Source: Acidobacteriota bacterium (GTDB lineage: Bacteria > Acidobacteriota > Thermoanaerobaculia > Thermoanaerobaculales > Sulfomarinibacteraceae). From it: a stretch of 57,651 bases of DNA. Below are positions 168-44,300 of the stretch, one piece after another (within the stretch, counting starts at the first letter, position 1; each line of letters starts with the position of its first letter). Below the pieces are notes generated by a model. That model ran no database searches. It had not been told where the DNA came from and saw only the letters and a program-made list of their open reading frames with translations. A program made the translations under genes and the position numbers. The DNA lies in assembly GCA_024641545.1 (NCBI GenBank), contig JAHECW010000011.1, forward strand, positions 1 through 57,651. The letters are read 5' to 3'.

Positions 168-489
168 GTGATCAGCGTGGTCGGAGACAGGACGGGAAGG
201 ACTGCGCCCACGCTGATCGCGCGCCGGCGGCCTGTTTCGCGGCCGGAAGAGATGCACCGGATCGATTTCGCCGTGGGTTGCCCGGCATCGGCATGATGCG
301 CAGCGGTCCGGGTCGCCGGATGGGTGGTGGCTCTGCACAATGCCGTGCCCGGCACGCCCCGAGGGAGGCTTGTTCCCGCGTGCTTGCGGCGTTGCCGCTC
401 GCGCTCGCGACCCTACCAATCAATTGAACCGTCGTCTCAGCTTTATTCGACGAAACGATCTAAGATCGCTCTCGATCGGAGGGCTCGCG
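168..489. other. Non-coding interval with an inverted repeat
   Basis: No convincing gene lies here; the short ORFs in the track lack domains and overlap each other. An 11-bp perfect inverted repeat, GATCAGCGTGG (170-180) and CCACGCTGATC (208-218), could form a stem with a 27-nt loop. It may be the terminator of a gene outside the window. The last about 60 bases hold the leader of the next gene with a GGAGG-type ribosome site. Confidence 0.5.
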
Positions 490-1914
490 ATGAAACACGT
501 CTGCTCGGTCTGCGCCTATGTCTATGACGACGACATCGAGGGCGTTCGCTTCGACGAGCTTCCGGATGACTGGGTGTGCCCCATCTGTACCGCCGACACC
601 AGCTTCTTCGAGGCCCAGGATCGGCCATCGCATTCTGACGCGGTCTCGAATACGGGCGCGGGCGCGGAAGCAGGCGATCTCGGGGACTATCTCTCTCAGT
701 GGCGGCGGGACACCCATCCCCTCGAGGGCGATCTCGCGATGATCCAGGAGATGGCGATCACGGGAATCTCGGTTCTCGAGCCGATGCGGACCAGCAAGAA
801 AGTGATTTCCTGGGACGAGATCCTGATCTGCGGCGCCCAGCTCGCCACCCTGCCGCTCAACGACACCGAGGCGGTGAGCACCCGAACCGTCATCGGACCC
901 AACGCCGCCCATCCGCTGGTCATCGACACTCCGGTCTATGTCAGCCACATGTCCTACGGCGCCCTGTCCCGTGAGGTCAAGATCGCCCTCGCCCGCGGCA
1001 GCGCCGCCGCCGGCACCGCGATGTGCTCCGGCGAGGGCGGCATCCTGCCCGAGAGCCTCGAAGCAGCCCACCGCTATATCTTCGAGTATGTCCCCAACCG
1101 CTACTCGGTCACCGCCGAAAACCTCCGTGCGGTGGACGCGGTCGAGATCAAGATCGGTCAATCGGCCAAACCGGGGCTCGGCGGGCACCTCCCCGGTTCG
1201 AAGGTCACCGAGGAGATCGCCGCGGTTCGGGGCTTTCCCGCCGGCAGCGACATCATCAGTCCGGCGCATTTCCCCGACATCACCGACGCCGACGAGCTCA
1301 GGGCCAAGGTCGACGAGTTGCGCGAGGCCACCGGCGGCAAACCCATCGGGATCAAGCTCGCGGCCGGTCAGATCGAGGCCGATCTCGAGATCGCGCTGGC
1401 GGCGCGACCCGATTTCGTCACCATCGACGGCCGGGCCGGCGCGACCGGGGCCGCACCCAAGGTGGTCAAGGACGCCACCGCGATCCCGACCATCTTCGCG
1501 CTCGCGAGGGCGCGTGCCTTTCTCGACGGCGCCGGCGCCGACGGCGTCTCGCTGGTGATCACCGGCGGGCTGCGGACCTCGGCTGACGCCGCCAAGGCAA
1601 TCGCCATGGGCGCCGATGCGGTGGCTTTCGCCTCCGCCGCCCTCATGGCCGCCGGCTGCCAGCAGTACCGCATCTGCCACACCGGCAAGTGCCCGGTGGG
1701 GATCACCACCCAGGACCCGGAGCTCCGCGCCCGTCTCAAGATCGATCTCTCGGCGAAGCGGGTGGAGAATTTCTTCCGCGCCACAACCCACGAGCTTGCC
1801 GATTTCGCCCGGCTGACCGGCCACAACGACATCCACAAACTGAGCACTCACGACCTCCGAACCACGAGCTCGGAGATTTCCAACCACTCATCCATCGCCC
1901 ACGTGGGCGACTGA
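490..1914 (+). CDS. Rubredoxin-glutamate synthase-like FMN/Fe-S fusion protein
   Basis: Predicted 474 aa. Residues 1-35 form a rubredoxin-type iron site (C5-x2-C8 and C30-x2-C33) whose inter-ligand loop is about eight residues shorter than in a classical rubredoxin. The rest matches the glutamate synthase large-subunit FMN-binding domain ([23 protein letters not shown]), ending with a C390-x5-C396-x4-C401 pattern expected for a [3Fe-4S] cluster. The amidotransferase and GXGXG domains of full GltB are absent, so this is a stand-alone FMN oxidoreductase. ATG 490 is chosen over the track start at 340 because the rubredoxin domain begins there, after CGGAGGG. It lies 16 bp before the rubrerythrin start, so electron transfer to or from rubrerythrin is plausible but inferred. 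The substrate is unknown. Confidence 0.88.
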
Positions 1915-1930
1915 GAAAATGGAGGCAACA

Positions 1931-2452
1931 GTGTCAAAAACGCAAGAGAATCTGATGGCCGCATTCGCCGGTGAAAGCCAGGCGCGCAACATGTACACCT
2001 TCTTCGCCAACGTGGCGCGCAAGGAGGGCTATCACTACATCGCCAGGATCTTCGAGGAAACCGCCATCAACGAGATGCGGCACGCCAAGGACGAGTTCGT
2101 CCTCGCCGGCAAGCTCGGCGACACCGCGGCCAACCTCCAAGAGGCCATCGACGGTGAACACTACGAGACCACCACCATGTACCCCGAGTTTGCGGCGCAG
2201 GCCGACGCCGACGGCAACAAGGAAGCGGCCATCCTCTTTCGGATGATCGCGAGGGTCGAGGCGGAGCACCGTGATCGCTACAAGAAGCTTCTCGAGATGG
2301 TCAAGAACGGCACCGTATTCAAACGCGACAAACCGATCCGCTGGAAGTGCTCGGTCTGCGGCTATGTCCACGAGGGCACCGAACCCCCCGGCAAGTGCCC
2401 CTGCTGCAAGCACCCGCGGGAGCACTACGAACCGGAGAGCACGGAGATCTGA
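1931..2452 (+). CDS. rbr: Rubrerythrin
   Basis: Predicted 173 aa. The N-terminal ferritin-like diiron domain contains GESQARN, an E-x2-H in NEMRHAK and a second in EAEHRDRY. The C-terminal rubredoxin domain has CSVC and CPCC. Rubrerythrins reduce hydrogen peroxide in the cytoplasm using electrons from rubredoxin-type donors. I choose GTG 1931 (MSKTQENL) because GGAGG lies five bases before it; the track ATG at 1919 precedes that site. It directly follows the rubredoxin-GltS fusion, probably in the same transcript, and is followed by a hairpin terminator. Confidence 0.93.
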   Translation: MSKTQENLMAAFAGESQARNMYTFFANVARKEGYHYIARIFEETAINEMRHAKDEFVLAGKLGDTAANLQEAIDGEHYETTTMYPEFAAQADADGNKEAAILFRMIARVEAEHRDRYKKLLEMVKNGTVFKRDKPIRWKCSVCGYVHEGTEPPGKCPCCKHPREHYEPESTEI

Positions 2453-2481
2453 TCTTCGCAGCCGACACAATCGAGAACCAC

Positions 2482-2519
2482 ACGCCCGCCGGCAGGAAAC
2501 CGGCGGGCGTCCCTTGTTG
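2482..2519 (+). terminator. Terminator after rubrerythrin
   Basis: An 11-bp perfect stem, ACGCCCGCCGG/CCGGCGGGCGT with a 7-nt loop, is followed by a modest T-rich stretch (CCCTTGTTG). It starts about 30 bp after the rubrerythrin stop. Confidence 0.75.
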
Positions 2520-2629
2520 ATCGATCCGTCAGATCCAACGCGGCTTTGCGATCTCGAGGCGCCGTCGGGCTCGCCTTTCCGCCGATTTTGGTTCATGATT
2601 GCGGCCAGACAAGCTGAAAGGACACATCG

Positions 2630-4852
2630 ATGACTCAAAGGCTGTGGATCCTGACGGTAGGCGCGCTCGCAATCCTGACGGCGACCACCACCATCGCCCA
2701 ATCCCCGGCACAGGCGCCCGAGAGCAACGAGAAGCTCGTCCTGGTGCTTTCCGGCGGCGGCGCGCGCGGAGCCGCCCACATCGGGGTTCTCAAGGTCCTC
2801 GAGGAACTCCACGTGGCGCCCGATCTCATCGTCGGCACCAGCATGGGCTCCATCGTCGGCGGCCTCTACGCCGCCGGTTGGTCACCCACGGAGATCGAGG
2901 AGCTCCTCGCTTCCATCGATTGGAACGGGATTTTTTCCGACGAGGTGCACCGCAGCGAGCTCTCGTTCCGGCGCAAGCAGGACGATCGACCGGTCCTGAT
3001 CCAGGCCCGGCTCTATTTCAAAGGCTTCAAGCCCTACCTTCCCGGCGGCATCCTCGGCGGCCAGCGGCTCGAGCTCTTGATGGATGCGCTGCAGACCGAG
3101 TCCGCCTCTGGCGCCGACCTCGACGACCTCAATATCCCCTACCGAGCCGTCGCCGCTGACATTGCCACCGGCCAACCCGTGGTCATCGACAACACGACGC
3201 TGGCCACGGCCATGCGAGCCTCGATGTCGATTCCGGGGGCGTTCTCACCGGTCGAACTGGATGGGCGGAAACTGGTCGACGGCGGATCGGTGGCGAATCT
3301 CCCGGTCGGGATCGCCAAGCAGCTCGGCGCCACCTCGGTGATCGCGGTCGACATTTCGAGCCCGCTCACCGCCGATGAGGACGAGCTCGAGAGCTTTTTT
3401 TCGGTATTCAACCAGCTCAACAGCCTGTTGACCGTCGGCAATCGGGACCGCGATGCGGCCCTCCTCGACGATGGCGACGTCCTCGTTCAACCCGATCTCG
3501 GCGATATCAGCTTCATCGGCTTCGACCGCGCCCTCGAGGCGGTTGCGATCGGTGAGGCCGCCGCCCGCGAGATGGCCGACACCCTCGCCCGGTTCGCCAC
3601 CGAGGACGACGAGAAGTGGGACGCGTACCTCACCCGGCAGCGCCGGCGACCACGGGGGCCGATGACCATCGACCGGATCCGGATCGTCAACACCGCCCCC
3701 ATCAGCGATGCCGTCGTTCGCCACGCCCTCTCCCTGGAGCCGCCCGAGAGCTACGAACCCAGTACCCTCCTCGGGGACCTCATGCAGCTCCACAGCCTGC
3801 GGTACTTCGGCATCATCGACTATCGCATCGACGGCGAGGAGGGCGACCGCGAGCTCGTGATCACGACCCCGCCGCGACCGTCGGGGCGCGGGTCGGTCGA
3901 GGTCGGATTCGGTTTCTCGGACGATTTCGACGGCAACACCGGCTACACCCTGTCGGCTCGACATCAGTTGCTGGCGGTCAACCGCCGCGGCGGTGAGTGG
4001 CAGAACATCCTCCAGCTCGGCACGGTCGGCCTCTTCGAAAGCCAGTTCTACCAACCGCTCGACGGCGCCATGCGCTGGTTTGTCGAACCATCACTGGGTT
4101 TCCGGCGTGAGATCGCCAATCTGTGGGCGGGTGGAAAACCGGTGGTCCAGTACCAGATCGAGGACGTTGCGGCCCGGTTGGCCGCCGGTCGGGTCTTCGG
4201 CCGCTGGGGCGAGCTCCGCGCCACCGCGTTCGCCGCCGACTTCAAGGCCACCCCCCGCATCGGCGACCCGGGCTTCCCGTCCGACGACGAGCGCCGCGGC
4301 GGTTTCAGCTTGGGTTTCACCGTCGACACCGTCGACCAGGTAGCCTTCCCGAGCCGCGGGGTCGCCGCCCACGCCTATTACGAGCGCTCGTCGGAGGCCC
4401 TCGGCGCCGAGAACGACACCGACCTGGCGGCCGCCCGCGTCGGTTACTCGATGAGCTTCGGCCGCAACACCCTGACGCCTTACCTCGAGTACGGCGAGAA
4501 CTTCGAGACCACCCTCGACTATCTCAATCTCTTCAAGCTCGGCGGTCTCGGACGGCTGTCGGGGCTCGGCGACAACGAGCTCCTCGGCGAGAAGATAGCG
4601 CTGGCGCGGCTGCTCTACTACTACCGCGTGACCGACTTCCGCGCCGCCGGCTTCGGGGTCCAGCTCTATGTCGGTGCGAGTCTCGAGGCCGGCAATGTCT
4701 ACGCCCGGCACGAACCGATCACCGGCTCGAGTCTGTTGACCGCCTGGAGTCTGTTCATCGGTTCCGACACGCCGCTGGGACCGGTCTACTTGGGATACGG
4801 CCGAAGCGAGGATCGCGACCGGTTCTACTTCACGATCGGGGATCGGTTCTAG
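2630..4852 (+). CDS. Patatin-like phospholipase with C-terminal Omp85/BamA-type barrel
   Basis: 740 aa with a signal peptide (residues 1-24, ending TTIAQ). The patatin catalytic domain spans about 35-330: oxyanion loop GGGARG (42-47), nucleophile elbow GTSMG with S71, and the DGG motif with D217 completing the Ser-Asp dyad. About 340-740 is a POTRA-like segment followed by a beta-rich surface-antigen (D15/BamA-like) region ending in aromatic FYFTIGDRF. This is the type V-like patatin architecture of PlpD relatives, in which the lipase is presented by its own outer-membrane barrel. It is monocistronic, with an AAAGGA ribosome site; a heptamer array starts directly after the stop. The lipid substrate cannot be told from sequence. 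Confidence 0.9.
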   Translation: MTQRLWILTVGALAILTATTTIAQSPAQAPESNEKLVLVLSGGGARGAAHIGVLKVLEELHVAPDLIVGTSMGSIVGGLYAAGWSPTEIEELLASIDWNGIFSDEVHRSELSFRRKQDDRPVLIQARLYFKGFKPYLPGGILGGQRLELLMDALQTESASGADLDDLNIPYRAVAADIATGQPVVIDNTTLATAMRASMSIPGAFSPVELDGRKLVDGGSVANLPVGIAKQLGATSVIAVDISSPLTADEDELESFFSVFNQLNSLLTVGNRDRDAALLDDGDVLVQPDLGDISFIGFDRALEAVAIGEAAAREMADTLARFATEDDEKWDAYLTRQRRRPRGPMTIDRIRIVNTAPISDAVVRHALSLEPPESYEPSTLLGDLMQLHSLRYFGIIDYRIDGEEGDRELVITTPPRPSGRGSVEVGFGFSDDFDGNTGYTLSARHQLLAVNRRGGEWQNILQLGTVGLFESQFYQPLDGAMRWFVEPSLGFRREIANLWAGGKPVVQYQIEDVAARLAAGRVFGRWGELRATAFAADFKATPRIGDPGFPSDDERRGGFSLGFTVDTVDQVAFPSRGVAAHAYYERSSEALGAENDTDLAAARVGYSMSFGRNTLTPYLEYGENFETTLDYLNLFKLGGLGRLSGLGDNELLGEKIALARLLYYYRVTDFRAAGFGVQLYVGASLEAGNVYARHEPITGSSLLTAWSLFIGSDTPLGPVYLGYGRSEDRDRFYFTIGDRF

Positions 4853-4943
4853 GAGTGAGGAGTCAAGAGTCAGGGGTTAGGAAGAGCACCGCACGTCTCA
4901 CGCCTCACGTCTTACTCCCAACCCCTCAACTCTTACCCCTCGC
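4853..4943. repeat. Heptamer-period inverted array (R7a)
   Basis: The left arm reads GAGTGAG-GAGTCAA-GAGTCAG-GGGTTAG and the right arm TCTTACT-CCCAACC-CCTCAAC-TCTTACC, roughly its reverse complement; both keep a 7-bp period. It fills the gap between convergent genes. It abuts the patatin TAG and contains the cupin TAA stop (4933-4935). Confidence 0.85.
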
Positions 4944-5283
4944 CCTTGAGCATCACCAGCATCCACTTTGCCGGCTCCGGCGCACGCACCGCATGCGGCA
5001 CATCGGCCGGCATGACGATCAGATCGCCGGGTGCGAGGAGGTGCTCCTTGCCCGCGATGATCACCACCAAAGTTCCTTCGAACAGGTGCACCATCGCGTC
5101 GAAGGGTGCGCTGTGCTCGGCCAGCGCCTGGCCTCGGTCAAAGGCAAAAACGGTGACATTGCCGCCCGCCGACCGCGCCAGGGTCCGACTGACGATGGCT
5201 CCGGGAGCGATCTCGACGGTGGTCTCGAGTCTGTGGACCTCGGCCGTCGCCAGGGCGCCGGGATGTCGTGTCTGCTCGTTCAT
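4933..5283 (-). CDS. Small single-domain cupin protein
   Basis: 116 aa. The cupin barrel covers about 30-112, with the second conserved motif visible as PGDLIVMPADVPHAV. The first motif is degenerate (APFDAMVHLFEG), keeping one clear His and a Glu replaced in spacing, so metal binding is uncertain. No signal peptide; cytoplasmic. GGGAGG precedes the ATG by five bases. It is divergent from the hybrid kinase, sharing a CRP/FNR-type palindrome centred 66 bp upstream of this start. The stop codon lies inside heptamer array R7a. Small cupins bind metals or small ligands; no substrate can be assigned here. Confidence 0.8.
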   Translation of the reverse strand: MNEQTRHPGALATAEVHRLETTVEIAPGAIVSRTLARSAGGNVTVFAFDRGQALAEHSAPFDAMVHLFEGTLVVIIAGKEHLLAPGDLIVMPADVPHAVRAPEPAKWMLVMLKGEG

Positions 5284-5314: not shown

Positions 5315-5320
5315 ATTCTG
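5315..5320 (-). promoter_or_regulatory. Candidate -10 box for the cupin gene
   Basis: CAGAAT on the minus strand (4 of 6 to TATAAT) lies where a class II CRP/FNR-activated promoter would place its -10 if the palindrome at 5343-5356 is centred near -41.5. Confidence 0.4.
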
Positions 5321-5342: not shown

Positions 5343-5356
5343 TTGATCTCAGTCAA
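5343..5356. promoter_or_regulatory. CRP/FNR-family box between cupin and hybrid kinase
   Basis: TTGATCTCAGTCAA has both half-sites, TTGA and TCAA, separated by 6 bp. This is the spacing recognised by FNR/ANR/DNR/NnrR-type regulators. It lies between divergent starts, 64 bp from the kinase ATG and 60 bp from the cupin ATG, and could serve both promoters. The regulator gene is not in this window. Confidence 0.7.
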
Positions 5357-5381: not shown

Positions 5382-5387
5382 TATACT
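5382..5387 (+). promoter_or_regulatory. -10 box of the hybrid kinase
   Basis: TATACT matches the -10 consensus at five of six positions. A start about 4-7 bases downstream puts the CRP/FNR palindrome at about -42 to -45, close to a class II activator position. Confidence 0.55.
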
Positions 5388-5420: not shown

Positions 5421-8168
5421 ATGATGGTGGGCAAACAGAGCAACGAAACACCGACACTCCCCGACAGGACGGTCTGCCCGATCACCGGGCTGCCGGTGGA
5501 ACGACGCCCCGAGTGGACCGACGTCGAGCTCGAAGAAAACTACCGGGTGACGGTCGAGGTCGTCGGCGGGCACATGATACGGAGCATCCCGCGCGGCTAC
5601 GCCACGGGCAGCGGGGTCGCCAAGGTCAACGCCCTCCACCGCACGGTCCGCGACGCGGCCATTCCCCCCGGCGACGTCCATATCCATATCGCCGACTACA
5701 GCCAGTTCGAAGGCGCGACCCAAGAGGCGCGGCGCGCCTTTGCCGCCGATCTTCGGGATCGCGAAGGGCTGGTGGCGCTCATTTTCCACGATGTCTCGCC
5801 ATTCTTCGCTCTGTCGATCAAGCTCGGCAAGCGGTTTCTGCGGCTCCACATCCCCATCGAGATCGCAACTGACTACCAGGCCGCCATGAGGCGCTCGCTC
5901 GCGATCCTGGCCGACGAGGGCGTCGAGGGGCTTCCGGAGCTGGACACAAAGAGCCGGCCCCATCCCGAGTACGGCACCCTGGACCTCGACCGGTATCAGG
6001 CTCAGTACCGGGTTCTCGACGGGCACATCGTCCACGGCAGATCCACGGGGTTCATGGGTCTCCTCGAGGTCGAGCGGCAACTCGAGTTCGAGAGCATGGT
6101 CATCTCCTCGCTCGACCGTTCCCGGGGCGCCCCGGTGATGGTGGTCGACGCCAGCGAACTCGAGGGCGTTTCGGCGGCGGGCCGCCGGCTCTACGTCGCG
6201 AGCCTCCGCCACCGTCAACGGACCCATCCCATCGGTCTCTATGTCTGTTATGGCGTGAACTCCTTGCTGCGCAACGTCATCAACATCTCTCGTCCGTTTC
6301 TCCCGTTCCGGATCCGCATCGCTCCAAACGAACAGACGGCGCTGGAAATGGCGCGCGAGGACCGATCGAGCCCCGCAACGACGGCCAGCCGCATCCGATC
6401 GCTGCTCTTCCCCGACCGGTCGAAGGACCAACCGGTTCAACAGACCCATGTCGAGGATCTCCTGCGCCTCATCGCCGCCATTGATTGGGAAGACGACGGC
6501 ACCGTCGAGCACGACTGGCCGCACCCACCGGACCACCCGCTCGCCCCCGTGATCGAATCGCTCGAACTGATCAAGGCCGAGGTTGATGAGCTCTTCCGCA
6601 CCCGACGCCGAACCGAGACCGCCCTGCGCCAGAGCGAGGAGCGCTACCGGACGATTCTCGACACCATCGTCGACGGGTACTACGAGATCAACCTCCGGGG
6701 CCAGGTGATGTTCTGCAACGACGCCCTGCTGCGGATCTTCGGCTATGCGCGTTCGGAGGTCGACGACCTCGATGCCATCGAGCTTCTCGCGGCCGAACAC
6801 CGGGATCGGGCGATTTCGGTCTTCACGCGGGTCTACGAGACCGGTGAGCCGGCCCACTCCATCGACTGGGAGATCAGCACACGAGACGGCACGTCAATCC
6901 TCATCGAGACCTCGATCTCCCTCATCACCGATGTCGACGGACAGGCGCTGGGGTTTCGCGGCATCATCCGCGACATCACCGACCGGGTCAGAACCGCCCA
7001 GGAGAAGGCGAATCTGGAGGCCCAGCTCCAGCGGTCTCAACGCATGGAAGCCATCGGAACCCTCGCCGGCGGGATCGCGCACAATTTCAACAACCTCCTG
7101 ATGGGAATCCAGGGCAACATCTCACTGCTGATCCGGGAGCACTCACCGGACAGCCCACCCGCCAAGCGACTCTCGACCATCGAAGCGTTGGTGGATGGAG
7201 GCTCCAAACTCACATCCCAGCTCCTCGGCTATGCCCGATCGGGCCGTGTCGATGTCAGGATCGTCGACCTCAACGCGCTGGTTCTCGAGATCGCCGAGAC
7301 CTTCAGTCTGACCCGAAAGGAGTATCGGATCCACACCGACCTCGCGGCATCGACCATGCCGGTCGAAGTCGATCCGGCCCAGATCGAGCAGGCGATTCTC
7401 AACCTCCTGGTCAACGCAGCCGATGCCATGCCCCGCGGAGGCGACCTCTATCTCAGCGGTCGTGTGGTCCACCACAGCGAGCTTGCCAACCCCGAGCACG
7501 AAACCAAGAAGGGGGACCATGCCGTCCTGTCGATCCGGGACACCGGGATCGGGATGGACCAGGAGACCCTCGATCGCTGCTTTGAGCCGTTCTTCACCAC
7601 CAAGGGGATCAGCGGCGGTACCGGCCTCGGCCTCGCCTCGGTCTACGGGATCGTCCGGGCGAACGGAGGCCTCATCGACGTCGTCTCGGCCGTCGGTCAG
7701 GGCGCCACCTTCAGTCTGTCGTTCCCGATGGTCGCACAGGGGCCGGATGCGGTCATCGCCGGCCGCGGTGAACCCATCGAGGGCGTCGGCACCATCCTCG
7801 TGGTCGAGGACGATGAAGCGGTCCTCGAGGCCTGCTCGGAGATGCTCACCCTCCTCCGCTACACGCCGATCTGCGTCAGCGCCGGTGAGGCGGCCATCGA
7901 CATCTTCAGCCGCAGGCGGGACGACATCGATCTCGTCATCCTCGATCTCATCCTCACGGATCTCAACGGCGGCGAGGTCTTCGACCGCCTCCGGGCCATC
8001 GATCCCGACATCCGCGTCCTCCTCGCCAGCGGTTACAGTCTCGACGGAGAGGCCGCCGGCATCCTCGAACGCGGATGCAACGGCTTCATCCAGAAACCCT
8101 TCACCATCGAACAGCTTTCGCGCAAGCTCGATGGGCTTCTTTGTCCCCCGACCGAACCACCCGCGTAA
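5421..8168 (+). CDS. Hybrid sensor histidine kinase with duplicated N-terminal sensor domain, PAS and receiver
   Basis: 915 aa, no membrane segments. Residues 41-160 and 196-310 look like two copies of one domain (D-x-S-x-F/L-EG...RR-x-F/Y...LR-x-R), possibly STAS-like. A PAS domain follows at about 405-525. The kinase core has H554 in GGIAHNFNN, N-box NLLVNAADAMP, DTGIGMD and the GTGLGLAS lid. The C-terminal receiver (790-910) has acidic residues E796-D797-D798 and phosphoacceptor D842, with K in FIQKPF. No output regulator is encoded nearby, so its target is unknown. ATG 5421 directly abuts GAGG; GTG 5427 has better ribosome-site spacing. A CRP/FNR box and TATACT precede it. It ends 6 bp from the convergent MDR gene with no terminator. 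Confidence 0.88.
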   Translation: MMVGKQSNETPTLPDRTVCPITGLPVERRPEWTDVELEENYRVTVEVVGGHMIRSIPRGYATGSGVAKVNALHRTVRDAAIPPGDVHIHIADYSQFEGATQEARRAFAADLRDREGLVALIFHDVSPFFALSIKLGKRFLRLHIPIEIATDYQAAMRRSLAILADEGVEGLPELDTKSRPHPEYGTLDLDRYQAQYRVLDGHIVHGRSTGFMGLLEVERQLEFESMVISSLDRSRGAPVMVVDASELEGVSAAGRRLYVASLRHRQRTHPIGLYVCYGVNSLLRNVINISRPFLPFRIRIAPNEQTALEMAREDRSSPATTASRIRSLLFPDRSKDQPVQQTHVEDLLRLIAAIDWEDDGTVEHDWPHPPDHPLAPVIESLELIKAEVDELFRTRRRTETALRQSEERYRTILDTIVDGYYEINLRGQVMFCNDALLRIFGYARSEVDDLDAIELLAAEHRDRAISVFTRVYETGEPAHSIDWEISTRDGTSILIETSISLITDVDGQALGFRGIIRDITDRVRTAQEKANLEAQLQRSQRMEAIGTLAGGIAHNFNNLLMGIQGNISLLIREHSPDSPPAKRLSTIEALVDGGSKLTSQLLGYARSGRVDVRIVDLNALVLEIAETFSLTRKEYRIHTDLAASTMPVEVDPAQIEQAILNLLVNAADAMPRGGDLYLSGRVVHHSELANPEHETKKGDHAVLSIRDTGIGMDQETLDRCFEPFFTTKGISGGTGLGLASVYGIVRANGGLIDVVSAVGQGATFSLSFPMVAQGPDAVIAGRGEPIEGVGTILVVEDDEAVLEACSEMLTLLRYTPICVSAGEAAIDIFSRRRDDIDLVILDLILTDLNGGEVFDRLRAIDPDIRVLLASGYSLDGEAAGILERGCNGFIQKPFTIEQLSRKLDGLLCPPTEPPA

Positions 8169-10670: not shown

Positions 10671-11993
10671 ATGACGCACGTCGCGGCCACCCTGTCGGCC
10701 TCCCTCGGTCTGCTGCTCATGGCTCTTCTCGCGAGCATCGGTGCCGTCTCGGTGTACGAGGGCGAACGACGCGCTGCCCGGGTGTCCTTTCTGGCGGCGG
10801 TCCTGGTCGCAGGACCTCTCCTCGGCGCCGCTCTGCTCCCCGGGCCCTTTGCCTTCTTCGCCCTCTCGATCGGCGCCCTCATCGCCATCGGCGTGGTCTC
10901 CCGTTGTGTCTTTCCCCTGCGGCGAGCCGTGGAGCCGGGCGGTCGCGCCAGCCGGCGGGTCGATGAACGAGACATCATGTTTGCCCGGGGACGGCTCCGG
11001 CCCGGTTCACCCGAGTTCGACGCCTACTACCGGATGCGTCCCGAAAACCTGGCGAACGACAACCGCACCCGCGCGCTGCCAGGGCTCCTCTCGGCCGGGG
11101 CCGAGAAGGCCGAGCCCCTGTCCTTTGCCGCCGCCGACGCGTGTTTCAGCGTCACCGAGGCCCTGCGCTGCCGGGTCGACGGCGAGGTCGAACCGGTGCG
11201 GCAGGAACGCAGTCCGAGAGAATGGACCGACGCCCTCACCGGTCTCGCCCTCGGCTGGGGCGCCAAAGCCGTCGGTGTCGCCGAACTCGAGCCGGCGCAC
11301 GTCTATACCCATATCGGCCGCGGCGCCGGGACCTGGGGCAGTGAAATCAGACTCGCCCATCGGTGGGCCATCGCCTTCACCGTCGAGATGGACCACCGGG
11401 CGGTGGCCCAGGCGCCCGAGGCTCCGGTTGTCGCCGAATCGGCGCGCCAGTATGTCGAATCCGCCAAGATCGCCGTCCAGCTCGCATCGGTGATCCGCGA
11501 TCAGGGCTGGCCTGCCCGCGCCCACACCGACGGCAACTACCGCGTCATCGCTCCCCTCGTCGCCCGCGCCGCCGGCCTCGGCGAAATCGGTCGCATGGGG
11601 CTGCTCATGACCCCCCGCCTCGGGCCACGGGTCCGGATCGGGGTCGTGACCACGGACATCCCCCTGGTTCCGGCCGCCCCGGGTGACGACCTGTCGGTGC
11701 TCGATTTCTGCACCGTATGCAGGAAGTGCGCGGTCAACTGCCCGGTCGGCGCTATTCCCCACGGCGACCGAATCGAAATGGAGCAGGGACGACGGTGGGT
11801 CATCGACGACGACACCTGCTACCGATACTGGAACGCCATCGGCACCGACTGCGCGACCTGCATGAAGGTGTGCCCCTACTCGCACCCCGACACTCTGATG
11901 CACACTCTGGTTCGCAAAGCCACTCGGCTGTCTCCGGGGACCAGAAGCCTGATGCTGTGGATGGATGATCTCGTCTACGGGCGGAGGCCCTAG
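10671..11993 (+). CDS. Membrane-anchored reductive-dehalogenase-like 2[4Fe-4S] protein
   Basis: About 440 aa. Residues 1-75 contain two to three hydrophobic helices. The central region carries patterns of the RdhA/QueG-like fold (AVQLASVIRDQGW, ARAAGLGEIGRMGLLMTP, VTTDIPL). The C-terminal ferredoxin domain has C-x2-C-x2-C-x3-CP (CTVCRKCAVNCP) and a second set ending CATCMKVCP, enough for two [4Fe-4S] clusters. RdhA enzymes use cobalamin for reductive dehalogenation. Here there is no TAT signal; fused N-terminal helices replace the usual small RdhB anchor. The true substrate may not be an organohalide. ATG 10671 is a judgement; ATG 10647 is possible. A hexamer array starts right after the stop. 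Confidence 0.75.
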   Translation: MTHVAATLSASLGLLLMALLASIGAVSVYEGERRAARVSFLAAVLVAGPLLGAALLPGPFAFFALSIGALIAIGVVSRCVFPLRRAVEPGGRASRRVDERDIMFARGRLRPGSPEFDAYYRMRPENLANDNRTRALPGLLSAGAEKAEPLSFAAADACFSVTEALRCRVDGEVEPVRQERSPREWTDALTGLALGWGAKAVGVAELEPAHVYTHIGRGAGTWGSEIRLAHRWAIAFTVEMDHRAVAQAPEAPVVAESARQYVESAKIAVQLASVIRDQGWPARAHTDGNYRVIAPLVARAAGLGEIGRMGLLMTPRLGPRVRIGVVTTDIPLVPAAPGDDLSVLDFCTVCRKCAVNCPVGAIPHGDRIEMEQGRRWVIDDDTCYRYWNAIGTDCATCMKVCPYSHPDTLMHTLVRKATRLSPGTRSLMLWMDDLVYGRRP

Positions 11994-19086: not shown

Positions 19087-19596
19087 ATGAGTTCAGAGCA
19101 CGATGCCAGACGACTGATGGAAGCGATCCGGTTGATCGTCCGCCGGTTCTCCCTTGCCGAACGGGCGGACATCGGCTGCTGCGGAATGACGGTCGCCCAG
19201 GCCGCCACGTTGGAGGCGCTGGCCGATGGCGGCCTGCGGCTCGGCGAGCTGGGTCAACGCCTCGGGATTGCACCGAGCACCCTGTCCCGGAATCTCGACC
19301 GGCTGGTGGAGCGTGGTCTGGTCCTTCGCGGCGCCGACCCGAACGACCGCAGGGCCCTCAAAGCCGAGCTCACCAAAGAGGGCCGCCTCTCGGCAACGGC
19401 CGTCCGCCAGAGCGAATTGAATTTCGCCCGTAATATTCTCGACAACCTCCCACCGGGCTCGGCCTCATCCACCCTCGACACCGTGGACTGCCTCCTGACC
19501 GCCGTCCGTTCGGCGACCGAGGGCTGCTGCCCCGGCGCTTACGATCACCTTTTTGCCGGTTCCGGAATACACGTCCATGAAAGGACCGAATCATGA
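19087..19596 (+). CDS. MarR-family regulator with vicinal cysteines, probable arsenic sensor
   Basis: 169 aa from ATG 19087, preceded by GGAG. The winged helix-turn-helix is at about 50-100 (LRLGELGQRLGIAPSTLSRNLDRLVERGLV, DPNDRRALKAELTKEG). Two Cys-Cys pairs, C31-C32 (IGCCGM) and C147-C148 (EGCCPGAYDH), plus C135 are unusual for MarR proteins and could bind trivalent arsenic. Its stop overlaps the arsM start (ATGA), so the two are translationally coupled. An inverted repeat between -35 and ATG is the likely operator. Arsenic sensing is inferred from context and cysteines. Confidence 0.82.
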   Translation: MSSEHDARRLMEAIRLIVRRFSLAERADIGCCGMTVAQAATLEALADGGLRLGELGQRLGIAPSTLSRNLDRLVERGLVLRGADPNDRRALKAELTKEGRLSATAVRQSELNFARNILDNLPPGSASSTLDTVDCLLTAVRSATEGCCPGAYDHLFAGSGIHVHERTES

Positions 19597-33381: not shown

Positions 33382-33395
33382 TTGACCATGATCAA
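33382..33395. promoter_or_regulatory. CRP/FNR-family box upstream of norCB
   Basis: TTGACCATGATCAA has perfect TTGA and TCAA half-sites six bases apart, 71 bp before the norC ATG. FNR/DNR/NnrR-type activators commonly control nor genes through such sites. A class II start would lie near 33430; no strong -10 is seen there. Confidence 0.78.
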
Positions 33396-33466
33396 GGACC
33401 ACGACCGAGGACCGAGTGAGAGTTGATCAGAGTCCATTTCCGGACCGACAACCGAAGGAGGAGACC

Positions 33467-34183
33467 ATGACCGAGAAGGCCGCAAAGTGGATCTTCTGGC
33501 TGGGCACACTGTCATCGCTGGTGCTTTTTCTTGTGCTGACGGTGGACACCCACAGCCAGTTCGCCGCCCTGACCCACGCTGACCAGCTCGACGAGCAGGT
33601 CATCGCGGGCAAGCGGGCGTTCGAACACTACAACTGCAACGACTGCCACACGATTCTCGGTTTTGGCGGGTACTACGCGCCGGATCTCACCCGCGCCTAC
33701 ACCCGGCTCGGATCAGACACCATCCGGCGCCGGCTGGCCGCCCCGGATGTGGCTTTCGCCGACTCCTACCGAAAGATGCCGCAGCAGAACCTGTCCGAGC
33801 AGGAGATCGCCGACATCGTCGCCTTCTTCCGCTGGGTGTCCGAGATCGACAACCACGACTGGCCGCCGCAGCACTCGGAAGCCCGCTGGAAGCGGTCCAC
33901 CGAACGGCTGATGGCGGGAGCCGTGCTCTCTCCGGGCGCGGCGCTGATCAATCAGGAGGACTGTCTGACCTGCCACGCTCTCGGTGATCGCGGCGAGAAG
34001 ATCGGCGGCCGCCTGGAGTGGATCGGGTCGCGGCGAAACTCCGCGTGGATCGCCGAGTACCTCGCCAACCCCGAGGCCTTCGCCCCGGGTACCGAGATGC
34101 CGTCGTTCGAGCACCTGTCCGGGGAGCAGCGCCTGATGATCGGTGAGTTCATCGTCTCCCTCGACACCGCTGAAGGGAGGTGA
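33467..34183 (+). CDS. norC: Nitric oxide reductase cytochrome c subunit, with a second c-type heme domain
   Basis: 238 aa from ATG 33467, preceded by AAGGAGGAG. One N-terminal membrane helix (about 10-27) anchors periplasmic domains. Heme site 1 is C57-x2-C60-H61 in the NorC-like context CNDCHTILGFGGYYAPDL, with M104 as likely axial ligand. Heme site 2 is C166-x2-C169-H170 with M211 in TEMPSF. Classical NorC has one heme c, so this is a NorC with an extra mono-heme cytochrome c domain. It delivers electrons to NorB, which begins three bases after its stop. Confidence 0.9.
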   Translation: MTEKAAKWIFWLGTLSSLVLFLVLTVDTHSQFAALTHADQLDEQVIAGKRAFEHYNCNDCHTILGFGGYYAPDLTRAYTRLGSDTIRRRLAAPDVAFADSYRKMPQQNLSEQEIADIVAFFRWVSEIDNHDWPPQHSEARWKRSTERLMAGAVLSPGAALINQEDCLTCHALGDRGEKIGGRLEWIGSRRNSAWIAEYLANPEAFAPGTEMPSFEHLSGEQRLMIGEFIVSLDTAEGR

Positions 34184-34186
34184 GCC

Positions 34187-35539
34187 ATGACGTACCGGAC
34201 TCAAAACGTCGCCTTTCCGTACTTTGTCGTTGCGCTGCTCCTTTTCGGACTCCAGGTCATCGTCGGTCTGTGGTTGGCGATCAACTACTTCTTCACCGTG
34301 CCGCAGGACGTCGTCAACGTGTTTTCCTTCGCCACCGCCCGGGCGATGCACACCAACCTGGCGGTGCTGTGGCTCCTGCTCGGTTTCATGGGATCGACCT
34401 TCTACATGGTCCCAGAGGAAACCGAGAGCGAGCTCGCGTGGCCCAAGCTCGCCGTCGCCCAGCTCGTCATCCTCTCCCTCACCGGGGTCACGGCGCTGGT
34501 CGGTTTCCTCTTCGGCTGGACCCAGGGGCGTCCGTTGTTGGAGATTCCATTCACCCTCGATGTGGTGATCGTGATCGGGGTGCTGATGTTCCTGGCGAAC
34601 ATCGGCACGACCATGATCCGCGCCAAACGCTGGACCGCAACCCAGGGCTCGCTCCTCGCAGGTCTGGTGTTCCTTGCGCTGATGTACCTCTTCGGGATGC
34701 CGTTTTACAAAAACCTGGCGGTCGACTGGTACTACTGGTGGTGGGTGATCCACCTCTGGGTCGAGGGCGCCTGGGAGCTCATCGCCGCCGCCCTCACCGC
34801 CTTCATTCTGATGAAGCTCACCGGCGTCGATCGCAAGGTGGTCGAGAAGTGGCTCTACGTCGAGCTCGGACTCTTCCTCTTTACCGGGATCGCGGGCACC
34901 GGCCACCACTATTACTGGCTCGGTGCGCCCAAGTACTGGCTCTGGGTCGGCGGGATCTTCTCCGCCCTCGAGCCGCTGCCGATCCTCCTGATGGTCGTCG
35001 ACACCCTGCGCGATGTCCGCAAACGGACGAAACCGCTGGAGCCGAAGCTCACCTGGGTCTATCTGATCGGGATGATCATCCTGCACTTCATCGGCGCCGG
35101 GCTTTTCGGATTCGCGCACACGCTGCCGGGGATCAACTACTACACCCACGGCAGCCAGGTCACGGTCTCGCACGGCCACCTGGCCTTCTTCGGCGCCTAC
35201 GTTCTCCTCAACCTCACCTTCTTCTACTTCGCCATCCCACGGCTCAAGGGGCTGCCGGGGAACAACTACGACGAGAGGGCCGGGCACTGGGGCTTCTGGA
35301 TGATGTCCCTCGGTGTGGTCGGGATGAGCCTCGCCTTCGCTGTCGCCGGGGTGCTCCAAAGCTATCTCGAGCGGATGATGGGTCAGTCGTACATGCTCTC
35401 CCAGGAGCCGATCCGGTTCTGGATGTTCGTCGTCTTCCTGCACGGGCTGATCGTGGTCGCCGGAGTCTTCATCACGATCAAGCACCTGCTGACCCTGAAA
35501 CCAGCGCCGGCCGGCGCGGGAGGTGGCGCGGGCTCGTAA
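34187..35539 (+). CDS. norB: Nitric oxide reductase catalytic subunit (cNOR-type)
   Basis: 450 aa, 12 predicted membrane helices. Heme b and b3 ligands are visible: H55, and H329/H331 in SHGHLAF. The non-heme iron site has H189, H240 and H241. E193, E197 and E262 keep the spacing of the catalytic glutamates of Pseudomonas NorB (E211, E215, E280 relative to H207 and H259). It therefore looks fully active for 2 NO to N2O. No norQ/norD/norE accessory genes are adjacent. GGGAGG precedes the ATG. A strong terminator follows. Confidence 0.95.
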   Translation: MTYRTQNVAFPYFVVALLLFGLQVIVGLWLAINYFFTVPQDVVNVFSFATARAMHTNLAVLWLLLGFMGSTFYMVPEETESELAWPKLAVAQLVILSLTGVTALVGFLFGWTQGRPLLEIPFTLDVVIVIGVLMFLANIGTTMIRAKRWTATQGSLLAGLVFLALMYLFGMPFYKNLAVDWYYWWWVIHLWVEGAWELIAAALTAFILMKLTGVDRKVVEKWLYVELGLFLFTGIAGTGHHYYWLGAPKYWLWVGGIFSALEPLPILLMVVDTLRDVRKRTKPLEPKLTWVYLIGMIILHFIGAGLFGFAHTLPGINYYTHGSQVTVSHGHLAFFGAYVLLNLTFFYFAIPRLKGLPGNNYDERAGHWGFWMMSLGVVGMSLAFAVAGVLQSYLERMMGQSYMLSQEPIRFWMFVVFLHGLIVVAGVFITIKHLLTLKPAPAGAGGGAGS

Positions 35540-41345: not shown

Positions 41346-44300
41346 GAAACCACGGATAGATCGCCGGTAATACCAGCAACGTCAGAACCGTCGAGGTCAT
41401 GAGGCCGCCGATGACCACCGTCGCCAGGGGCCGTTGGACTTCGCTTCCGGTTCCGGTGGCGAGGAGCAACGGCAGCAGCCCGAGAGCGGTGGTGACCGCA
41501 GTCATGAGCACCGCGCGCAGCCGGCCGGACGCCGCCCGGACGATGGCCTCGGCCATCGGCACTCCTCGCTTGACCAGCTGATTGAGATAGGTCACGAGGA
41601 CCATCCCGTTCTCCAAGGCGATCCCGAAGAGAGCGATGAAACCCACCGACGCCGGAACCGAGAGATTCTGCCCCGAGATCCACAGGGCCATGATCCCACC
41701 GACCAGGGCGAGAGGAATATTGAGCAGGATCAACACCGAGCTCGTCAGCGAATTGAAGCTCGAGTAGAGCAGGATGAAGATCAAAAGCAGGGTCACCGGC
41801 ACCACCAGGGCGAGTCGACGGTTGGCCTGCTGCTGGAGCTCGAACTGACCACCCCAGGTCACGAGATAACCCGGCGGAAGGTCGACTCGTGTGCCGATGG
41901 CCTGCTCCGCCTCGGCCACGAAGGAGCCGATATCGCGGTCAACCACGTTGCACTGAATGGTGATGAACCGCTGACCGCCCTCGCGGGTGATCTGCCGGGG
42001 ACCGATGATCTCACGCATCTCGGTCAGCTGTGAAAGCTGGATGGTGGCTCCATCGGCTGTTGGCACGATGATCGATGCGATGGCCTCAGCGGTACTTCGG
42101 TCGGCTTCGGGGTAACGAACCACGATATCGAAACGTCGCACACCCTCGAAGACCTGTCCGGCGGTCTCGCCTCCCACCGCCGCCCGAATGACTCCCTGGA
42201 CATGCTTCACGCTGAGGCCCCAACGGGCCACGGCTTCGCGGTCGATCCGAATCAAGAGCTGCGGCGTCCCGCTGATCTGATCGGTCTGGATATCGGCCGC
42301 TCCCCGAACACCGCCCACCACCGCCGCAATTTCATCGGCCTTGGTCTTGAGAGTCTCGAGATCATCGCCGAAGAGTTTGATGGCGAGCTCGGCCCGGACC
42401 CCTTCGAGCAGCTCCTCGACGGCCATCTGAATCGGCTGGGTGAAACTGGTCAACACCCCGGGAATCTCTCCGAGGTGATGGCGTATCACATCCTCAAGTT
42501 CCAGTTGTGTGCCGACCCGCCACTGGTTGCGCGGCGTGAGCAGGAGATACATCTCGGCACTGTTGACCGGATCGGTGTGAGCGCCCACCTCGCCGCGACC
42601 TATCCGGGTCACGACCGACACCACCTCGTCGAGTTCCATGAGGCGACGTTCCACCCTCAGGGCGACTTCAGTGCTTTCGGTGAGGGCGATGGACGGCGCC
42701 ATGGTCAACCGGAGGACGAGGGTCCCCTCCTGGAGGGTCGGCGTGAATTCAGACCCGAGCTGCGGCAGCACCAGACCACCGATGAGCATGAGGCTCAGGG
42801 CAAGAACCACCGCCACCCGCCGATGATCAGCGAAGAAGGCCAGCAAGGGTTGATAGGCCCGGTCCAACGCCGCGACCACGCGGTCGCTTGCGCTGATGCC
42901 ACCCTGCCGGGGCCGGCGCATGAGCAGCGACGCCAGGACCGGCGCCACCACGAGCGAGTAGACCAACGATCCGATCATCGCCATGACGACGGTGTAGGCG
43001 AGGGGCCTGAAGGTCTTGCCCTCGACCCCCTGAAGGCTGAACAACGGGAGAAAGACGATCACGATGATGGAAATCGCAAAGAAGATCGGCCTCCCGACCT
43101 CCACCGCAGCCCGCACGATGACGGCCGGGCGGCTCTCACCCGGATCGGCCTGTCGCAGCAAACGGTCGATGTTCTCGACCATGACAATGGTGCCGTCGAC
43201 CATCATCCCGATGGCGATGGCCAGCCCACCGAAGGACATGAGATTCGCCGAAAGCCCGAAAAACCGCATGCCGATGAGAGCTACCAGGATCGAAAATGGG
43301 ATCGACAGGCCGACGACGACACTCGCACGAAAACCGCCCATGAAACCCAGCAGGACCAGGGTGACCAAGGCGATCCCGACGATCAATGCTCTCGTGACCG
43401 TGCGGACCGCGGCGTCGACCAGGCTTTTCTGTTCGTAGTAGGGAACGATCCTGACGCCTTCGGGGAGCATCTCATTGATCTCCTCGATCCTGGATTCCAC
43501 CGCCCCGATCACCGACGAGGAGTTGGCGCCATGGAGCTTGATCACCTGGCCGGCGACCACCTCACCGATCCCGTCGCGGGTCTGAAGACCCCGTCTGACC
43601 GCACCGCCGACCTCGATCTCGGCGAGATCGGCGAGAAAGACCGGGGTCCCGTCAACGGCCTTGACCACGACCTGTCTGAGATCCCGAATCCCAGTTGCGA
43701 GACCCACCGACCGCACGACGAGCTCTTCGGCGTTGCGCTCGATGAACTGCGCACCGACGTTGAGGTTGTTGGCGCGGATGGCGTCGATGACTGTTGCAAG
43801 GGAGACGTCGTACCGCAGAAGGGAGGTGGGATCGACCTCGACGAGGAACTGCTTCTCCCACCCGCCGATGCCGAGGACCTCGGTGACCCCCGGAACCGTC
43901 TGGAGATGGAACTTGATGAGCCAATCTTGGATCGTCCGGAGTTCCTCGAGGGTGTAACGGCCCGTCTCGTCCTCGAGGTAGTAGAAGAGGACGAGGCCCA
44001 TCCCGGTGGCGATGGGTCCCATTTCGGGATCGCCAAAACCCTCGGGAATCTGCTCACGCGCCTGCTGGAGGCGTTCACCCACCAGCTGCCGCGCGAAGTG
44101 GATATCCATGTCTTCAGCGAAGTAGATGTTGACGACCGAGAGCCCGAAGTTGGAGACCGATCTGGTCTTCTCGACACCGGGCAGCCCGTTCATCGCCACC
44201 TCGACGGGGAAGGTCACGTATTTTTCGATCTCCTCCGGCGCCAGCCCTTCGGTCAGGGTGAAGACCTGGACCAGATTCGGTGAAACATCGGGAAACGCGT

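Follow-up and report, generated by a model that had tools for sequence, protein, structure and literature searches.

Between two divergent genes of the window, by which we mean the whole 57,651-nt stretch of DNA analyzed here, lies a CRP/FNR-type palindrome. This 14-mer, TTGATCTCAGTCAA at 5343..5356, is 60 nt before a cupin gene on the minus strand (4933..5283) and 65 nt before a hybrid histidine kinase gene on the plus strand (5421..8168), and it reads TTGACTGAGATCAA on the cupin strand. Which of the two genes does the box control, and in response to what? An earlier note had located the palindrome between these genes, as we find it, and took it to serve both of them, from class II distance on either side, in one oxygen- or NO-responsive regulon. 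We consider it highly likely that the box is a class II activator site, centered at -41.5, of the cupin promoter in an NO-type regulon, and that the kinase is not a target.

The window contains three exact TTGA-N6-TCAA sites, where 0.26 would be expected. In the whole genome of the window (G000), there are 51 of them versus 22 for the reversed pattern, so close to half of the genome's exact sites could be due to chance, and extra evidence is needed site by site. Sorted locus by locus with a simple home-made gene caller, most of the 50 sites that could be classified (out of 51) fall inside genes. The third exact box of the window (41720..41733) is itself intragenic, and was dismissed as a regulatory site, being probably a chance match. 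Such counts are what would speak for the palindrome at 5343..5356 being a chance match too. That reading has virtually no prospect of being right, and is refuted for this site by the family-wide conservation of the box and its -10 spacing before the cupin gene.

The cupin gene encodes a 116-aa Cupin_2 protein, which scores 43.1 bits against the curated Cupin_2 profile (cut-off 27.2) and has 3rns and 1yhf as solved relatives. Among 20 genomes of the same family, 14 good homologues were found. The earlier note had named conservation in relatives as a test, and the box is indeed kept before 11 of the 14 (9 exact, 2 with one mismatch), at 43–89 nt from the approximate start, while 3 lack it. Shuffled upstream regions gave 0.01 exact and 0.30 one-mismatch boxes. 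These footprints are not all independent, because some of the family genomes are closely related. Identical cupin promoter sequences occur in public records, among them those of Ca. Sulfomarinibacter kjeldsenii and of a Holophagae MAG. A search of viral contigs with the cupin found no relatives.

At a class II CRP/FNR promoter, the box is centered at -41.5, which leaves 22 nt between the box and the -10 element. On the cupin side, CAGAAT (5315..5320, minus strand) begins at exactly this distance from the box, bearing out the class II distance proposed for this side. A hexamer of the form nANNNT is found at exactly +22 in 10 of the 11 boxed cupin promoters, while no other spacing between 5 and 44 has it in more than two; the +22 count was reached in none of 5000 shuffles. 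This two-base criterion was picked after inspection, but separate sequences agree with it, as nANNNT is present at +22 at 5 of 6 other likely targets in G000 versus 0 of 70 strands at intragenic boxes. The -10 hexamers of the box-bearing promoters are weak. The cupin side thus combines a symmetric, conserved box with class II spacing, both observed directly, and among the genes examined in the family the cupin gene is the one most consistently predicted to be box-controlled. Judged from sequence conservation, we take the palindrome for a genuine and conserved switch, and it would very probably turn on the small cupin gene jointly with nitric-oxide-removal genes.

The kinase side does not have this spacing. 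Its -10 element TATACT (5382..5387, plus strand) starts 25 nt past the box, which puts the box center at about -44.5, 3 bp off, and for this reason the class II distance claimed for the kinase fails. We regard it as improbable that the box is bidirectional and controls the kinase too, whether it activates that gene or, where box and kinase -35 region overlap, represses it. Such control could be read from the intergenic region that both genes share in the window and in a second genome of the same genus, and from a kinase promoter with a conserved TATACT and a poor -35 element. However, the distance from box to TATACT varies from 25 nt in the window to 15 nt in that second genome, in a third genome of the genus the kinase has no box, and +25 is used by no other target. 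No box was found with six more distantly related kinase homologues, which are not beside a cupin gene either.

The two genomes of the same genus that carry both the cupin and the kinase, G009 and G010, separate the claims. In G009, the order of cupin, box and kinase is as in the window; TACCCT stands at +22 on the cupin side, and the box is so near to the kinase TATACT (15 nt) that it would reach into the -35 region of the kinase promoter. G010 has an additional gene separating cupin from kinase. There the cupin retains the box, TTGACCGATGTCAA, with GATGAT at +22, and the kinase still has ACGTATACT but no box within 200 nt even when two mismatches are allowed. This natural rearrangement favors the cupin. 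The kinase -10 context ACGTATACT is invariant in three congeners, and TATACT is kept there independently of the box. Given the spacing and conservation, regulon membership of the kinase was rejected as the leading view, and the kinase is probably a neighbor that stands outside the switch. Incidentally, the gene inserted in G010 (L050 9094-10851) is on the kinase strand, and a terminator-like hairpin with a T-run lies just before the kinase promoter.

The kinase itself has 915 residues, comprising a tandem sensor repeat followed by PAS, HisKA, HATPase and receiver domains. A Pfam search with the sensor (5421..6440, residues 1–340) gave no match even at E 10. A unit of ~125 residues occurs twice in the sensor (hhalign probability 98.9, E 1e-17), which is present in 9 of the 20 family genomes and has 25–29% identity in homologues outside the genus. 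Structure prediction from two sequences reached a pLDDT of 39, too poor for a fold search. As a guess from the modeled order of strands and helices, the sensor might be a STAS-like repeat.

The genome-wide scan for TTGA-N6-TCAA suggested by the earlier note shows that a common composite of box and -10 hexamer at +22 precedes genes for NO and nitrogen-oxide metabolism. Within the window, a second box was said to lie before norCB, and it does: TTGACCATGATCAA at 33382..33395 is 72 nt ahead of norC, and GAGAGT, a -10-like hexamer on the plus strand, follows 22 nt past the box at 33418..33423. The norC-like gene encodes a cytochrome c of 238 aa (33467..34183, plus strand), and its homologous locus in G009 also has the box and the spacing. 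Next comes norB (34187..35539, plus strand), which encodes the large subunit of a cytochrome c-type NO reductase (450 aa), securely identified by its match to P. aeruginosa NorB (3o0r, E 9e-106). In G010, cNorB was looked for but not found. As a side observation, the G009 norB homologue (81%; G009:C7:28775-30118) is reported with one TGA inside its open frame.

Elsewhere in the genome, the same composite is found before a NapH-like gene, before a multihaem cytochrome gene on contig C9, before another multihaem cytochrome gene followed by a NapC/NirT-type cytochrome (C215), and before a gene for a 4Fe-4S protein, an FrdX-like ferredoxin (C253). The gene for NnrS (E 1.9e-101) is boxed as well, with TAGAAT at +23, 1 bp off. 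Both norB and nnrS, the mark of a DNR-type regulon, are therefore among the likely targets, at +22 through norC-norB and at +23, respectively. The name FrdX-like rests on a ferredoxin N-terminus and on neighboring genes. In five other genomes, the cupin gene is directly followed by such a ferredoxin gene, while in G000 the two genes are at separate loci with a box each. Hcp was rejected as a core target, as hcp (Prismane protein) was found in G000 only among the 20 family genomes, in a locus that is cut by a contig end and shows no box. Separately, window positions 10671..11993 encode a 4Fe-4S protein that resembles reductive dehalogenases and, at 141.6 bits, falls a little short of the NCBIfam cut-off (160.35 bits).

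Which protein would bind these boxes? The genome encodes two clear CRP/FNR proteins, P0003 (contig C9:8933-9622) and P0004 (contig C110). The best candidate for the regulator gene sought by the earlier note is P0003. Its best solved relative is DNR of P. aeruginosa (3dkw, E 1e-22), although its best NCBIfam matches stay below their cut-offs. Its recognition helix PEVLSR, a DNR-like P-E-x-x-S-R of the TTGA type, is invariant in 13 family orthologues. The P0003 gene adjoins the boxed NapH-like gene or its equivalent in five genomes (G000, G009, G011, G004 and G001). As exceptions that speak against the model, three genomes (G006–G008) have P0003 relatives (50–58%) but no cupin box, and in another, G005, the reverse is seen. 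Within the window, a weak HTH_Crp_2 match (19117..19596) was discarded as a regulator, being a MarR protein.

It is unlikely, in our estimate, that the box drives the cupin gene through another CRP/FNR protein, P0004 or one that was missed, and in response to a signal other than NO. P0004 is CRP-like, has relatives widespread in the family, and carries SRETVSR in its helix, thus also E-x-x-S-R. Moreover, G005 has the cupin box with a P0003 match of only 35%. Against this, it is P0003 that has the DNR-like helix and adjoins boxed promoters in five genomes, and the target set consists of NO and nitrogen-oxide genes.

FNR boxes have the core TTGA-N6-TCAA as well, and the regulon could on that ground be an oxygen-responsive FNR regulon. 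FNR senses oxygen with a cysteine cluster that holds a 4Fe-4S center. Neither clear CRP/FNR protein of the incomplete assembly has this cluster at its N-terminus, as P0003 has three scattered cysteines and P0004 has none. An oxygen-sensing FNR was accordingly rejected as the regulator, oxygen control of the regulon is very improbable, and NO is the more plausible signal. The NO model also fits the functions of the targets, namely NorB, NnrS, the NapC/NirT-type cytochrome and the NapH-like protein.

At residue 184 of P0003 (L021:8933-9622), the congeners have a cysteine (AAECGTG) that is aligned to a histidine of DNR (AGHLS). In other genera, this position is C or L, in a shifted context, AAQCGT. 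The cysteine may possibly be relevant to haem or NO sensing.

We propose the following course of events. A DNR-like CRP/FNR activator, for which P0003 is the likeliest candidate, would bind TTGA-N6-TCAA as a dimer, contact RNA polymerase and fire the weak -10 element (nANNNT) exactly 22 nt downstream. NO or nitrogen oxides would thereby switch on the cupin gene together with norCB, the NapH-like gene, the two multihaem cytochrome genes and the FrdX-like ferredoxin gene, and probably nnrS too. The divergent kinase gene would use its own, box-independent promoter. We infer P0003 as the binder, NO as the signal and activation as the outcome of binding; the common target set, the presence of the regulator gene and its recognition helix are seen directly in the genome. 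Of the single regulon suggested by the earlier note, the CRP/FNR box, the class II cupin promoter and the composite shared with norCB stand, while membership of the kinase is not borne out, in view of its spacing, the G010 arrangement and the boxless distant homologues.

The kind of system is already known, because DNR and HcpR regulons, NO-induced cupins of Sphingopyxis and Desulfovibrio, and FrdX of C. difficile have been published. DNR, HcpR and related NO regulons have been described (PMC1274295). The regulon predicted here resembles the DNR regulon of Pseudomonas and beta-proteobacteria in its box near TTGATnnnnATCAA, in its targets norB and nnrS, and in its regulator, an FNR-like NO-responsive activator there and a DNR-like candidate here (PMC1274295). 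It differs in that it occurs in a different phylum, has a box that for the most part reads TTGACC-N4-GTCAA, counts a cupin and an FrdX-like ferredoxin among its members, and is predicted from sequence.

In Sphingopyxis granuli TFA, an Fnr box at -41.5 precedes an operon, Cupin-norB-nnrS2, that is induced by NO (PMC7713065). As here, a cupin gene is under a box, TTGAc/t-N4-g/aTCAA, at -41.5, with norB and nnrS (PMC7713065). In this alphaproteobacterium, however, the genes form one operon under FNR-type proteins, whereas here they are at separate loci with a DNR-like candidate; the two cupins were compared by description.

Similarly, the cupin gene Ddes_1828 of D. desulfuricans lies beside hcp and is NO-induced, with a log2FC of 4.4 (PMC5701242), and in C. 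difficile tolerance of NO depends in part on FrdX (PMC12915319). The HcpR regulon (hcp-frdX) of Desulfovibrio and clostridia shares with the present one the CRP/FNR control of a ferredoxin-like FrdX, and includes the cupin Ddes_1828 (PMC1274295, PMC5701242, PMC12915319). Unlike there, hcp is present here in 1 of 20 genomes with no box seen, and the HcpR1 site is TGTGA-N6-TCACA rather than TTGA-N6-TCAA.

What is added is the occurrence of such a regulon in an Acidobacteriota family and its conserved cupin plus ferredoxin. An NO-type regulon, specified as far as the distance from box to -10 element, is now predicted for an uncultured family whose relatives include Ca. Sulfomarinibacter, and a small cupin and an FrdX-like ferredoxin are named as its predicted conserved members. 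As NO-induced cupins have been reported from Desulfovibrio and Sphingopyxis and this one is predicted to be another, the function of the cupin is worth a direct test. We suggest, tentatively and at somewhat less than even odds, that it could be a dedicated, so far unrecognized NO-defense protein that acts together with the FrdX-like ferredoxin. Cupin homologues of distant anaerobes often have an frdX-like, hcp, norB or CRP/FNR gene in their vicinity. Genome records contain more than 570 cupin relatives; in raw counts for the 80 best of them, the 4Fe-4S protein (matched in its C-terminal part) is nearby in 10 loci, hcp in 2, norB in 1 and CRP/FNR genes in 7.

Two further arrangements were noticed around cupin genes. 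In G008 (L136/L153), a qNOR-type norB gene is immediately followed by the gene of a distant cupin relative (37%), which has no box of its own. In the window, genes for a rubredoxin-glutamate synthase, a rubrerythrin and a patatin-Omp85 protein precede the cupin gene (340..4852), and in G009 a rubrerythrin gene and a gene of the patatin's size likewise adjoin it.
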